Below are positions 2,342-19,390 of a stretch of DNA of 64,000 bases, piece by piece (positions within the stretch are counted from its first letter, which is position 1; each line of letters begins with the position of its first letter). The translations under genes and the position numbers were made by a program. The DNA is taken from assembly GCA_019856515.1 (NCBI GenBank), contig CP082230.1, positions 5,084,001-5,148,000 on the forward strand. The letters run 5' to 3'. This stretch comes from Prolixibacteraceae bacterium. Lineage in GTDB: Bacteria; Bacteroidota; Bacteroidia; Bacteroidales; Prolixibacteraceae. The notes beneath the pieces are model-generated. The model did not search any database. It had not been told where the DNA came from and saw only the letters and a list, made by a program, of their open reading frames with translations.

Positions 2342-2733
2342 GATGAATTAACCACTAAGGCACGAAGTCACGAAGATAGTTTGGCCACGGATTAGACGGA
2401 TTGGACAGATTTCCACGGATCTTTTTGTGGTTGAATCGTAGATAAAATTCCAAAGTACCACTAAGGCACAAAGACACAAAGGGAGGTTCCTACGGATTTT
2501 TATTTGTGCTACGTAGAAGCACGATACTCACGTCTTAAAAACAATATGGCCACGGATTAGACGGATTGGACAGATTTCCACGGATCTAATTTGTATTATT
2601 AACCTCAGATTCTACAGAATTGATATTTAACCACAGATCTAACAGACTAAACTGATTGTTACAGAACTAATTTGTATTATTAACCACAGATTTGACTTAA
2701 TTGTTGCTCAAACTTTGTAAATGATAGATTCTT
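2342..2733 (+). repeat. Intergenic degenerate repeat array A (forward orientation)
   Basis: It starts 8 bases after the capF stop with a copy of the CACGAAG module (AACCACTAAGGCACGAAG), then GCCACGGATTAGACGGATT copies near 2375 and 2550. A hairpin-type stretch, GTAGAAGCACGATACTCACG, lies near 2515. AACCACAGATCTAACAGACT-type copies (2625-2700) run up to the GxxExxY gene. All copies point rightward. The array interrupts an otherwise tightly packed operon. It has no coding potential of its own. Confidence 0.85.
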
Positions 2734-3096
2734 ATGTATTTTGATTTGACTCAGAAAATAATTAAATGCTATTATGAAGTTTATAATACTCTTGGATTTG
2801 GCTTCTTGGAGCAAGTTTATGAGAAGGCTTTGTTATATGAACTAAAGAGTTCTGGGTTATATGTGGAAGATCAAAAGAAAATTGAGGTATTTTATCAGAA
2901 ACAAAATGTCGGTGTGTATTATGCTGATTTAGTTGTTGAGAATAAAGTTATTATTGAGCTTAAAGCTGTTAAAAGATTGACACCTGAGTTTTCAGCTCAA
3001 TTATTGAATTATCTTAAGGCCACTAATTTTGACGTTGGCTTATTGATGAATTTTGGCGTTGAACCTGAATTTAAAAGATTAATTTGCGATTTTTGA
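2734..3096 (+). CDS. GxxExxY protein (PD-(D/E)XK nuclease-like)
   Basis: 120 residues carrying the name-giving motif G23-F-L-E26-Q-V-Y29. A PD-(D/E)XK-like core follows: D65 in YADLVVEN, then E75-L-K77 in IIELKAV, and Q89 in SAQLLNYL. The family (PDDEXK_3/TIGR04256) has no established biological role. The gene has nothing to do with FucNAc synthesis yet sits between capF and capG. It is flanked upstream by rightward repeats and downstream by a leftward copy (3097-3153), as though it and its repeats arrived together. Nuclease function is inferred from the motif only. Confidence 0.88.
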   Translation: MYFDLTQKIIKCYYEVYNTLGFGFLEQVYEKALLYELKSSGLYVEDQKKIEVFYQKQNVGVYYADLVVENKVIIELKAVKRLTPEFSAQLLNYLKATNFDVGLLMNFGVEPEFKRLICDF

Positions 3097-3153
3097 GTTA
3101 AATGTAATTTGTTTGATCTGTTCAAATCAGTCTAAATCTGTGGTGAGTTATTT
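3097..3153 (-). repeat. Inverted repeat copy closing the GxxExxY unit
   Basis: Read on the minus strand, 3113-3149 gives AACTCACCACAGATTTAGAC followed by TGATTTGAACAGATC. This is the same module as AACCACAGATTTGACTTAAT just upstream of the gene (2681-2700), in opposite orientation. The GxxExxY gene is therefore bracketed by inverted copies. The capG start codon follows immediately. Confidence 0.75.
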
Positions 3154-13789: not shown

Positions 13790-14005
13790 CCACGGATTAA
13801 AAAGAACCACAAAGTATATTTTGGTTGATGTGTGATAGAAGGGAACCACGAAGGCACAAAGACACGAAGGTTGATTAAGATACACAAAAGAGACCTGGGT
13901 GAAGAAATGTGACCACGAAGGCACTAAGACACGAAGGTTGATGCGTAAGTGGTAATGAACCGCTAAAACGCTAAGGGTTGTGGTGCAAGGGGATCATGGA
14001 AAATT
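13790..14005 (+). repeat. Repeat array D (forward), upstream of the second GxxExxY gene
   Basis: The first copy (CCACGGATTAAAAAG) begins within the wbuC stop codon. Rightward AACCACGAAGGCACAAAGAC and ACCACGAAGGCACTAAGACA copies follow at about 13850 and 13910, then AACCGCTAAAACGCTAAGG near 13958. The last 50 bases before the GxxExxY ATG are unique and AT-rich. Confidence 0.8.
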
Positions 14006-14351
14006 GAACATCTAACCTTGAATAAGTGTTGTTTCTTATGTGTTGATTTAAATATATAATGAAAATGAGGGAGTTCGAATTTATTGCAAATCAAATAATT
14101 GATAGCTCTTATGATGTACATGTCGAAATGGGACCTGGTTTACTTGAATCTGTTTATCAGAAATGTTTGATATACGAATTAAGGTTGAGAGGGTTTTCTG
14201 TTCAAAGAGAAGTGTCTATTCCTCTTCAATATAAAGGCGTTTCGTTAGATAGTGAATATCGTATAGATATATTGGTGGAGAATCAAATAATTATTGAACT
14301 TAAATTGGTTCAAGAAATTTTACCGATACATAAGGCACAATTATTATCTTA

Positions 14352-16067
14352 CCTAGATTTGGCGACTTAACAAAAAAGAATGAAGAGATCTTTATTTATA
14401 TTATTGATTATCATTATCTTAAACTATTGAAAACAAAATTATTTGATTCACTTTTAAGAAATACTCTTGATCATGTCAACGATAACAAAAATAGGTATTT
14501 CACGCTCCAAATTATCAGATCGAGCTGGACTATCACTGATTATGAATTTTATTAAAAACATTGGATTCTATTCCCTAGTATCAAACAAGTTTCTATCAAA
14601 GATCCCCTACAGTGGGTATGGTTTAACATTGGAATCATTTTTTTGTCAAATGGTCGCACATTTTATTGATGGAACTCACAGTTCAATCTGTTCCTTTGAT
14701 AGAAAAAAACTCAGTGCATCATATGCACCCGTTATTGGTGTTGAAAAGAATGAATTAGCCTCTAGTTTTCAAATAAAACGATTCATAGTAAAACTGTCAC
14801 AACTATCAAACAGTGAACTGTCTGAGATTCTAAATGAGCTCTTTATTTGGCGATTACTACATGAAAAGCCTAAGGTTATTGTTCTTGGGGTAGACACAAT
14901 GGTAATGGACAACAATTATTCAGAAAAGAAAGAAGACAATAAACCGACGTATAAAAAAGTAAAAGGTTTTCAACCTCTTCATATATCATGGGAGAACTCC
15001 CTTATAGATGTCCTATTTCGTCCTGGTAATCATCACTCTAATCATGGCAATGATTATACCGAGAGAGTAAAACATATTGTAGATTTGATTAGATCTCGTT
15101 ATAGCGAATCTGTCCCTATAATCGTTTGTTCAGATAGTGGCTTTCTAGATGAAAAAGCATTCAACTTTTTTGATCAGTTGAATATCTCTTTCATTACAAC
15201 AGGAAAAATGTATAAAGACATAACCTCTGAACTAGAACACATTAAATGAGGTGATTGTGAGAAATATACTAATGGAACGTTACAATGGGATCTCTATGAT
15301 TTTGGCAATAAATTAAAGAGCTGGAGTAAGTTTTGGCGCTGCATCGCAACTTCATTGTCTCGAGAAGAAGATGGTCAGAGGGTATTAGATCTGTCAGGTC
15401 CTGACAATCTGATTTACACCAATATTGGAAAAAATAAAATCTCAGACGAACGATTAAAAAAAGTAGATATGAGTGATGTTTTAACTGCGAAAGGTATAGT
15501 TCAGTTATCTCACCATAGAGGTGCAGACGAATTAATTCATCGTAGCCTAAAAGAGTTGGCTACTACTGAATCATTGCCATTTAAGAAATTTAATCAGAAT
15601 AAGGTCTATTACTATATTCTGGCAATGAGCCATTCACTTTTTGAGGCCTATAAGAATGACATTTCCTACGATAAAATATCGGCCAAAGCATATCCAAATA
15701 CATTTAGAAGAAAATTAATCGATTTTGCTGGTGAAATTGTTGAAGGAGGAAGAAATACAACTTTAAGAATCGCAAAAGAGGTACAAGAAGAATTTGATAT
15801 TAAAGAATTATGGGAAAGATGTTTAAAACCTCCAATTGTATTATTTACAGCAGCTTAGTGTTTTAATCTTGTATTGAAAGAAAAATTAAACCGAACGGTA
15901 ATGGGAAAGGTATACCCTAAAATAAAAAGGTAGAGTTAGTATCGTAATAGAAATCTAAAATATGACTAGAATAAGACCAAAAACTTACGAGAAAACACTC
16001 TTGCTTCAAAAAAAAATGAGATGGCGACTTTGATTTATGCTGATAATCTATAGTCGCCAAATTTAGG
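14352..16067 (+). mobile_element. IS1380-family insertion sequence, copy 1
   Basis: 1716 bases. Terminal inverted repeats read CCTAGATTTGGCGACTTA at the left and AGTCGCCAAATTTAGG at the right, resembling the CCTAGATT start of ISEcp1-type IS1380 elements. Five-base target duplications TCTTA flank it (14347-14351 and 16068-16072). The single transposase gene carries a nonsense mutation. A second copy of identical length lies inverted at 24822-26537. Confidence 0.93.
14473..15858 (+). pseudogene. IS1380-family transposase with internal stop codon
   Basis: The frame matches the intact 461-residue transposase of copy 2 at nearly every position. Codon 259 is TGA (15247-15249) where copy 2 has CGA (Arg), a C-to-T transition, so translation ends after 258 residues. 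The remaining frame continues intact to 15858. Putative catalytic D141 (GVDTMVMD) and D221 (CSDSGF) lie before the stop. Few other differences exist (P/A at about 45, V/I at 90), so the lesion is recent. It could move only if supplied with transposase by the other copy. Confidence 0.9.
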
Positions 16068-16186
16068 TCTTACCTAAAGATGACAGATTGCCATTTGGGG
16101 TTTCTTATAAACTTTAATGTCCCATTGATCAAAAATGGAATTTGTCGGATGGTTAATTAATATTGTAGAAAATAGTTTTGTGATAC

Positions 16187-16512
16187 GATATTTTTCTTTG
16201 TGCCTTCTTTCCCAGCATTTCATACTGGGCTATGTTCTATTTCCCTTTCAGGGAATACTTCAACCCTTCGTGTCTTTGTGTCTTCGTGGTTCATTTAAAT
16301 GATCCGTGAAAATCCATTAAATCCGTGGCTATATTATTTTCTTCGTGTCTTAGTGCCTTCGTGGTTCATTTAAAAGATCCGTGGAAATCCATTAAATCTG
16401 TGGCTATAATTTTTCTTTGTGCCTTCGTGTCTTAGTGGTTCTTCTATGATCCGTTCAATCGTGGCTATAATTTTTCTTTGTGACTTCGTGTCTTTGTGGT
16501 GCTTTTTCTTCT
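16187..16512 (-). repeat. Inverted repeat array D' downstream of the second GxxExxY gene
   Basis: Every module here is the reverse complement of those elsewhere: CTTCGTGTCTTTGTGTCTTC, CTTCGTGGTTCATTTAAATG, ATCCATTAAATCCGTGGCTA and so on, about four CACGAAG/CACGGATT pairs. A leftward hairpin module (CCCAGCATTTCATACTGGG, and CCCTTTCAGGGAA) lies at 16213-16252. It is the only long leftward array among plus-strand genes and mirrors array D across the GxxExxY gene. The region 16513-16693 is unique, with no gene I can support. Confidence 0.88.
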
Positions 16513-18088: not shown

Positions 18089-19390
18089 TAGCCACGGATT
18101 GGACGGATCTTTTAAATGAACCACGAAGACACAAAGGCACAAAGAAGATAATATAGCCACAGATTAGACGGGTTAGACGGATCTTTTAAATTAACCACGA
18201 AGACACAAAGACACGAAGGGTTGAAGTGCACGGGATGGGACACTGATGAAACAGATTTTATTTGTTGTTGAAGTGTTCCCTGAAGGGGAAATAGAACATA
18301 GCCCAGTATGAAATGCTGGGAAAGAAGACACAAAGAAAATATTTAGCCACGGATTGGACGGATTTAATGGATTTCCACGGATCATTTAAATTAACCACGA
18401 AGGCACAAAGACACGAAGAAAATAATATAGTCACGGATTGGACGGGTTAGACGGATCTTTTAAATGAACCACGAAGACACGAAGGCACAAAGAAGATAAT
18501 ATAGCCACAGATTAGACGGATCTTTTAAATTAACCACGAAGACACAAAGATACGAAGGGTTGAAGTGCACGGGATGGGACACTGATGAAACAGATTGGAC
18601 TGATGAACACAGATCTTATTTGTGGTTGGAGCCTAGGGAAACAAGGAAACTTAGCCTCGGATTAGACTGATGAACACAGATCTTTATTATGGTTGATACG
18701 CAGGATTGCACACAGATGAAACAGATTAGACTGATGAACACAGATTTTTATTGTGGTTGAGGTGCATTGAGGAAAGAACCACGAAGACACAAAGACACGA
18801 AGGGTTGAAGTATTCCCTGAAGGGGAAACCGAATCTAGCCCAATGGTGGAGACCATTTCTTGACCGCAAGGTCAAGATATCGGTTGGAGCCTTGGGTAAA
18901 GAAGTCCCCCACAACCAAGGGCTGAAGGCCTGTCCGAAAAACAGTATTGCCACGGATTGGACGGATTAGACGGATTTCCACAGATCTTTATTGGGGCCAT
19001 GATGCCGAGCGGAGCACCCCGTTCCCAGCGGTTGAAACGCATGGATGTATTGCCACGGATTGGACAGATTTTCACGGATCTTTGTTGATGTACAGGGGAT
19101 TGGACACAGATGAAACAGATTAGACTGATGAACACAGATCTTTATTGTGGTTGAGGTGCATTGAGGAAAGAACCACGAAGACACAAAGATACGAAGGGTT
19201 GAAGTGCACGGGATGGGACACTGATGAAACAGATTTTTATTGTGGTTGAGGTGCATTGAGGAAAGAACCACGAAGACACAAAGACACGAAGGGTTGAAGT
19301 ATTTCCTTAAGGGGAAGGCGAACCTAGCCCAATGGTGTAATGACTATGTTGCGCGGTAGCATTTGATAGGAATGGAGTCTTGGGACAGAG
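18089..19390 (+). repeat. Repeat array E, 1.3 kb, with hairpin modules
   Basis: Begins right after wzi and consists of rightward copies: AACCACGAAGACACAAAG, GCCACGGATTGGACGGATC, ACTGATGAAACAGATT and GAACACAGATCTTTATTG. Embedded are TTCCCTGAAGGGGAA hairpin modules at 18276, 18810 and 19300; the last two are followed by CTAGCCCAATGGTG, a variable core and GGAGCCTTGGG or GGAGTCTTGGG. One GATGCCGAGCGGAGCACCCC module lies near 19000. No leftward copy is seen. The remaining 293 bases to the next gene (19391-19683) are unique and AT-rich, presumably leader and promoter. Confidence 0.87.

Follow-up and report, generated by a model that had tools for sequence, protein, structure and literature searches.

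The closest described counterparts of the unit reported here are the repetitive extragenic palindromic sequences (REPs) with their RAYT (TnpA-REP) genes, organised as REPtrons and REPINs; insertion sequences (ISs) with their miniature inverted-repeat transposable elements (MITEs); and the intervening sequences (IVSs) of 23S rRNA that carry an S23 open reading frame (ORF). The unit consists of a GxxExxY gene between inverted blocks of short repeats (iterons). It was followed up from a stretch of 64,000 nucleotides of Prolixibacteraceae bacterium (assembly GCA_019856515.1, contig CP082230.1, positions 5,084,001 to 5,148,000), hereafter the window, in which two such genes, gene 1 and gene 2, are located. 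From sequence comparisons we consider it probable, at roughly two chances in three, that the GxxExxY gene is the sole coding part of a compact mobile element (~420-750 bp), whose protein would recognise or process the ends of its own element.

The REP/RAYT systems are similar in that a small nuclease gene is accompanied by cognate repeats, the type of repeat is lineage-specific, and gene-less inverted pairs are dispersed. This parallel was drawn in the initial annotation of the window, and its logic of a nuclease with its own dispersed repeats holds, whereas protein family and repeat form differ: the GxxExxY protein belongs to the PD-(D/E)XK type and RAYT to the HuH Y1 type (window proteins checked), and direct iterons of 7-8 bp in inverted blocks take the place of the GT[AG]G-tagged stem-loops of REPs. 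GT[AG]G-footed palindromic REPs were not recognised, as judged from the end consensus with no dedicated GT[AG]G scan. A further difference to REPtrons, going by one account of them (PMC6006769), is that the gene-bearing GxxExxY unit itself is found at new sites.

With ISs and MITEs the units share terminal inverted ends, a single ORF, and short gene-less units with the same ends. Movement as a unit between inverted ends, as in an IS, is indicated by comparative evidence; gene-less units that share the ends of a gene-bearing element, as in MITEs, were found at 15 of 20 places fetched from one genome (G068). The differences to ISs are the lack of known transposase chemistry in the window proteins, the lack of a clear target-site duplication, and the length of 420-750 bp. 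Overall, GxxExxY units look like an insertion sequence accompanied by MITEs, but one that lacks a known transposase and shows no target duplication.

The IVSs with an S23 ORF likewise place a small ORF between inverted ends; a 428-nt IVS in one species, and excision of IVS elements by RNase III, are described in one report (PMC4990558). The S23 protein, a four-helix bundle, is unrelated, however; those GxxExxY units that have an ORF next to them are located between protein genes and not in 23S rRNA, and what is conserved in them is the iteron and not a stem.

As for the protein, Cas4, lambda exonuclease and archaeal Hjc share its fold, the catalytic D, and the ExK and QxxxY pattern (Foldseek E 7.5e-05 to 1.8e-03); the GxxExxY protein differs in being minimal (120 aa), with no extra domain, and in being encoded between inverted iterons. 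TnsA of Tn7 and the R2 endonuclease are PD-(D/E)XK parts of transposition machines, i.e. the same nuclease superfamily in DNA mobility; the nuclease there works beside a transposase or a reverse transcriptase, whereas here it is the sole protein of the unit. To our knowledge, no role other than that of a partner has been described for PD-(D/E)XK domains in transposition machines.

Inverted iterons at GxxExxY genes

The flanks were compared free of any motif, the upstream flank of each gene against the reverse complement of its own downstream flank, with a threshold score of at least 14. The window's family comprised 110 loci, 107 with long enough flanks and 96 with usable gene bounds, copies shared by descent being included in both; 79 family places had been fetched because their genomes had about three or more CACNAAG matches. 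Inverted ends were present at 53 of the 107 loci, as against 51 of 1,274 mismatched flank pairs, and, among the loci with gene bounds, at 47/96 as against 12/435 control ORFs of the same loci (Fisher P ~3e-29). Removal of nine orthologous duplicates left 48/98. The family figure is inflated by the choice of repeat-rich genomes, since it splits into 44/77 for these and 9/30 for loci that were not repeat-chosen (including gene 1).

A second, cross-phylum set came from scanning named genomes, where the best 80 of at least 582 matches were kept, two of these being genes already present among the family loci. It spans about 15 phyla by labels that we assigned, and contains 75 loci with 200-bp flanks. 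Here 56/75 loci carried inverted ends, compared to 103/1,108 mismatched flank pairs and 4/176 control ORFs. At a score of at least 13 the ends were found in Acidobacteria (3/3), Chloroflexi (4/4), Alphaproteobacteria (6/6), Planctomycetota (5/6), Bacteroidota (24/35), Ignavibacteria (3/5) and Archaea (1/2). Plasmid matches amounted to eight records, all below 60% identity and without a strain series.

The initial annotation had proposed CACGAAG/CACGGATT repeats as the flanks of these genes. A literal search yielded CACNAAG pairs within 500 bp at just 9 of 80 fetched loci, and taken literally the idea would therefore fail; other copies of the gene carry other iteron types. At least five CACNAAG pairs were counted in 47/85 family genomes with a GxxExxY gene and in 1/15 without (P 0.0005; hand count, uncorrected for kinship and genome incompleteness).

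For the anatomy of the element, 20 further places from other genomes were joined to the analyses of element length and duplication, orientation, tree, neighbours, arm divergence and consensus where they passed, and orthologous duplicates were excluded from the counts of element length and duplication, iteron orientation, neighbour genes, arm divergence and end consensus. The 121 elements with paired ends measured 423-754 bp (median 520), limits that are imposed by the 200-bp flanks searched. The end consensus of the main class was TTaAC-CACAGAG (137 arms with at least two chained iterons), that of a second class TTGTC-CACAGAT (23 arms), with 2-4 iterons per arm and a spacing mostly of 8-12 bp (112/127 steps). 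The iterons mostly point inward, in agreement with the orientation check that the initial annotation had proposed: they face the gene in 85 of 97 elements with at least three pattern matches, while in the other 24 elements ties default to inward.

Units lay between two genes co-directional with the nuclease gene in 72 of 118 cases and between two opposite ones in 7 of 118, and in 66 of 106 cases no more than 15 bp separated an element end from a stop codon. This preference for co-directional genes, and the resemblance of the layout to IVS elements removed by RNase III (PMC4990558), might suggest an RNA-level element whose ends pair in the mRNA and which is excised in the manner of 23S rRNA intervening sequences. 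The arms point elsewhere. With iterons located by pattern in one arm, the two arms of 69 main-class elements disagreed at 16/787 positions of the iteron core and at 123/239 positions of the spacer; this concentration of divergence in spacers, with cores kept, implies that the motif is conserved rather than the pairing. Excision from RNA also leaves movement to new sites unexplained by itself, and we regard it as very improbable. Still less credence is given to an ordinary, immobile operon gene with regulatory repeats or terminators and a coincidental arrangement in the window; the co-directional intergenic position and the conservation of several sites within a genus would suit it, and against it stand the rarity of such ends at the control ORFs above, together with the empty sites, unit-limited homology and dispersed gene-less ends described below.

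The iteron class follows the protein tree. Among the 121 tree elements, 94 labels were made by pattern, 22 by rule (including gene 1) and five were left without a label. The pattern labels required three changes on a tree of 94 proteins, compared to a shuffled mean of 15.9, and addition of the rule-made labels gave six changes compared to 27.6 (116 proteins); near-copies aid clustering in these two trees, and the few columns leave many forks open. At below 60% identity there were three changes compared to 8.7 (26 proteins). None of 500 shuffles reached the observed value in any of the three cases. Gene 1 fell into a set of eight rows that uniformly carry the CACAGAT label (support 98; four of the eight rule-labelled, gene 1 among them), and the 5' piece of gene 2 grouped with two proteins of the main class (support 92, not starred). 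By this placement each nuclease gene of the window agrees with one of its two repeat types, gene 2 less firmly than gene 1. Such tracking of the protein tree by repeat specificity offers a natural set for how very small nucleases acquire DNA specificity.

Occupied, empty and gene-less sites

Two loci of one genome (L039 and L047, the latter between thyA-like and folA-like genes; gene names of this kind, including mutA-mutB and capE-capF-capG, are our own reading) share homology that is confined to a ~600-bp block starting and ending at the inverted ends. Between two organisms (L144 and L145) the homology is confined to 655 bp, with a right end that is unrecognisable there.

Orthologous sites differ in the presence of the unit. 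At the L026 site, represented in 13 genomes, the unit is present in G095 and G086, whereas G062 and G092 have no iteron there and the genes on either side overlap each other (ATGA); comparison with empty orthologous sites, which the initial annotation had proposed, thus did yield iteron-free ones. At the same site, gaps of 18-74 bp without a recognisable end pair occur in G042, G010, G089 and G069, a right end alone in G030, G098, G053 and G082, and a decayed 3' gene end in G076. At the L045 site the element is complete in G047, reduced to both ends with the gene deleted in G097, and missing from G079 and G091; ends without a gene are found in G057, G085, G094 and G065, and other DNA in G018, G088 and G072.

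Operon junctions are occupied by varying contents. Among 30 mutA-mutB loci, eight have a GxxExxY match, seven an S23 match, and 15 neither; one locus of this junction (L116) has a gene-less end pair. The capE-capF-capG operon is the site of gene 1, and its capF-like gene is present in 13 of 100 genomes. In five genomes other than the window's (L316, L318, L319, L321, L323/L324) the gap upstream of capF has a GxxExxY match, and in one (L314) it has an S23 match, whereas in the window this gap measures 7 bp; capF-capG gaps of 500-782 bp with neither match occur in four genomes (L312, L313, L315, L322). Different junctions of one operon are therefore occupied in different genomes.

Gene-less ends are dispersed as well. 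The ends of the L043 element gave 95 BLAST rows in its own genome, G068 (one copy may give two rows). The 20 places fetched there, eight of which were picked because the listing showed a pair, comprised 15 inward gene-less pairs (6-190 bp inside), five single ends and no outward pairs. These figures bear on a REPtron-like reading, by which a host or domesticated gene stays essentially stable while the repeats alone spread under its action: the 15 gene-less pairs outnumber the six GxxExxY genes of G068, 20 inward pairs among 150 listed places (hand count) are at most 150 bp apart with no room for a gene, and some gene sites, e.g. mutA-mutB, are common to several genomes. Presence and absence of whole units with iteron-free empty sites, paralogy limited to the unit, and the filling of different junctions of one operon in different genomes argue the other way, and we consider a stable gene quite improbable. 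They agree with the initial annotation, which suggested that the GxxExxY gene and its inverted repeats moved together as a unit with the repeats as its ends, as do the inverted flanks and the gene-less ends.

Several observations weigh against a mobile unit driven by its own nuclease. Target-site duplications gave no clear signal in 121 elements (offsets -6 to 6, lengths 2-9; largest excess, 4-mers, 7 vs 1.25, at offsets inside the ends) or in the 15 gene-less pairs (at most 3 vs 1), a comparison limited by AT-rich flanks. Only a single intragenomic pair with more than 78% identity was present among the fetched loci; several element sites are common by descent; and the sites with a right end alone and the remnant in G076 fit decay after insertion and excision equally. 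Inverted ends at threshold 14 were missing from 21 of the 30 family loci that were not repeat-chosen and from 19 of 75 cross-phylum loci. Direct flank similarity was also raised, to 38/96 (score at least 14; control ORFs 21/435) and to 18/75 in the cross-phylum set, as is expected where flanks hold palindromic units or arrays and is unexpected with just two clean ends. Finally, iteron specificity must come from a protein of 120 residues with no separate DNA-binding domain.

The GxxExxY protein and a candidate mechanism

The products of the two window genes matched TIGR04256 (141.5 and 120.3 bits, cut-off 35) and PF13366 (PDDEXK_3; 144.9 and 115.3, cut-off 22). The AlphaFold2 model of gene 1 (predicted local distance difference test, pLDDT, in Table 1) had as top Foldseek matches SSO0001 (4ic1, E 7.5e-05), which we take to be a Cas4, LHK-Exo (3syy listed), lambda exonuclease and archaeal Hjc (E 1.8e-03); the R2 endonuclease was a weak match (rank 44, E 0.12). 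An alignment of 55 sequences shows no variation at D65, E75, K77 and Y93 and almost none at Q89; QxxxY marks RecB/Cas4 enzymes. PADLOC gave weak matches to Cas4, in line with this fold, and to PDC-S02, PHROGs no match, and a sequence-profile search of the PDB a single match (E 0.61). From fold and catalytic D...ExK, the protein is predicted to be a minimal PD-(D/E)XK nuclease of the Cas4/lambda-exonuclease/Hjc kind. A role for GxxExxY units was not found described, and PDDEXK_3 not found mentioned, in the open-licence papers searched. In one such paper (PMC8934634) a GxxExxY domain is called by a pipeline at the place that CRISPRone assigns to cas4, another (PMC12085832) lists a GxxExxY gene for the genome of an algal virus, and PF13366 occurs in work on Arctic microalgae (PMC9756366); by the latter two the family may reach eukaryotes and their viruses.

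Comparison of sequences documents the presence and absence of the unit, end-to-end paralogy, dispersed gene-less pairs and an iteron class that follows the protein tree; that the GxxExxY protein drives the movement is what we infer from them. The units might instead be mobile and moved by another enzyme, a host one or an unlinked transposase, with GxxExxY as a passenger or accessory that, e.g., repairs or protects the ends. Known transposase or recombinase domains were not detected in the two window proteins, which matched just GxxExxY/PDDEXK_3 in NCBIfam and Pfam, the scan being limited to these two. S23 genes, which encode an unrelated protein, have a similar inverted-iteron layout that could point to a shared mover: inverted flanks were present at 11/29 S23 loci (among L281-L310; score at least 14) compared to 74/812 mismatched pairs, which were the sole control. 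An external mover fits less well with the iteron class following the GxxExxY tree, with the occurrence of both classes in one genome, the window's, and with active-site residues that are invariant in the 55 aligned sequences, and we regard it as unlikely.

The S23 flanks carry cognate inverted iterons of AGACATCAGAC, TAGCTATTAGCT and CAGTGGTCAGTG types. The S23 matches that share the mutA-mutB junction with GxxExxY units are those of L125, L129, L131, L132, L139, L140 and L142.

For a mobile unit with its own nuclease the following mechanism is proposed. Each end typically holds 2-4 short iterons (CRCNRAG or CACNRAT types), usually facing the gene, after TTAAC or TTGTC, and the element occupies short gaps between genes that for the most part run one way, a direction that it shares. 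The nuclease would recognise the iterons of its own element and cut or process the ends. Joining of the DNA to a new site would leave the target unduplicated and would probably involve a single-stranded or repair-coupled step. That no clear duplication was found speaks against ordinary staggered-cut insertion and makes such a route the most likely.

More tentatively, and at somewhat less than even odds, we propose a class of autonomous DNA transposons in many bacterial phyla and archaea, whose sole enzyme, a minimal Cas4/Hjc-like nuclease, would recognise the inverted iterons of its own element and integrate with no duplication of the target. This enzyme would give rise to MITE-like hairpins and to CACAGAG/CACGAAG/CACGGATT arrays. 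Together with S23 there would then be at least two small proteins, unrelated to each other, that share the inverted-iteron end design and operon junctions. The mobile-element reading would give the orphan, widespread GxxExxY family a candidate role, and the short-repeat arrays of the examined genomes an origin; should the nuclease prove to do the moving, an element running on a Cas4/lambda-exonuclease-type nuclease alone would be categorically new.

The window locus and the arrays of its genome

The features of the two loci are summarised in Table 1.

Table 1. GxxExxY genes of the window and associated features (window coordinates).
Feature	Position	Strand	Remarks
Mixed array upstream of element 1, CACNAAG and CACGGATT iterons	2348..2640	+	between capF-like and capG-like genes
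Left end of element 1, CACAGATT-type	2683..2703	+	inverted-flank comparison
GxxExxY gene 1, intact, 120 aa	2734..3096	+	D65, E75, K77; model pLDDT 96.5
Right end of element 1, CACAGATT-type	3123..3144	-	inverted-flank comparison
Array D, mostly CACNAAG-type iterons, gene-facing	13791..13976	+	best inverted arm 13843-13874
GxxExxY gene 2, 5' piece	14059..14370	+	D70, E80-x-K82; tblastn match 14071-14364; profile match
IS1380-like insertion splitting gene 2	14356..16068	+	transposase in two pieces, 14467-15249 and 15355-15858
GxxExxY gene 2, 3' piece	16069..16160	+	TAA stop (by reading); separate tblastn match
Array D', CACNAAG-type and CACGGATT-type iterons, gene-facing	16192..16504	-	best inverted arm 16260-16292

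Gene 2 lies between inward-facing arrays D (pointing right) and D' (pointing left), as initially described. The best inverted match of its flanks, formed by the two arms in Table 1, scores 26.5, which was reached by none of 2,000 size-matched random placements in 31.5-63 kb of the window (maximum 20). The splitting of the gene by an IS was confirmed: both pieces match GxxExxY/PDDEXK_3, the 5' piece by profile and the 3' piece by tblastn (16053-16157, 35 residues, 66% identity to L074), the reading frame runs on into the IS after the 5' piece, and CTTACCTA is present at both edges (14348, 16069). The catalytic D, E and K of gene 2 were found by count on the translation at the residues initially assigned. 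The IS transposase pieces scored 117 and 63 bits with NCBIfam IS1380, both below the cut-off of 180, and 64.3 (above) and 31.1 (below) with Pfam DDE_Tnp_1_4 (cut-off 34.7).

The same arrangement had been claimed for 2342-3153. An inward pair does exist at gene 1; it is weaker, with a score of 13 that was reached by 1 of 2,000 random placements, it is of CACAGATT-type, and the CACNAAG copies upstream of gene 1 have no partner downstream. The claim that no other array points left is valid for the window: of 67 copies of CACNAAGNCACNAAG (the CACNAAG pair), 59 are on the plus strand and all eight minus-strand copies are inside D' (16266-16484), directly downstream of gene 2. It does not extend to the genome, in which minus-strand triple-iteron clusters were also found at 5.022, 5.069, 0.912 and 1.460 Mb.

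The genome (one contig, 5.19 Mb) contains two GxxExxY genes, both inside the window, and tblastn revealed no third remnant in the fetched stretches; most of its arrays consequently have no such gene nearby. The arrays of the window may be accumulated remains and tandem expansions of two element families, one per gene, with D and D' as the ends of the second element. Across the genome (G000), 14 triple-iteron (CACNAAG) clusters were concordant and three discordant with the inferred replichores (hand grouping), D' being among the three. The arrays are mostly on the strand of positive GC skew, even where both flanking genes run the opposite way (L253, L256; loci L243-L262), with local exceptions at L247 and L259; this polarity hints at a replication-linked orientation.

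A gene-less junction in G057 and G085 (L349, L350) combines a left end of the CACAGAT type with a right end of the CACTAAG type, as though elements of two classes had inserted there; both of these classes are also intermingled in the window arrays. Downstream of another element (L007:1970-2060) there is a ~90-bp repeat with many copies in G042, G053, G095 and G098. A third interspersed repeat, TTCCCTGAAGGGGAAA...TAGCCCA with GCTGAAAGC-type palindromes, is mixed into the iteron arrays of the window (18267-18305, 18804-18842 and 19293-19331) and of L259, and by reading it looks REP-like.

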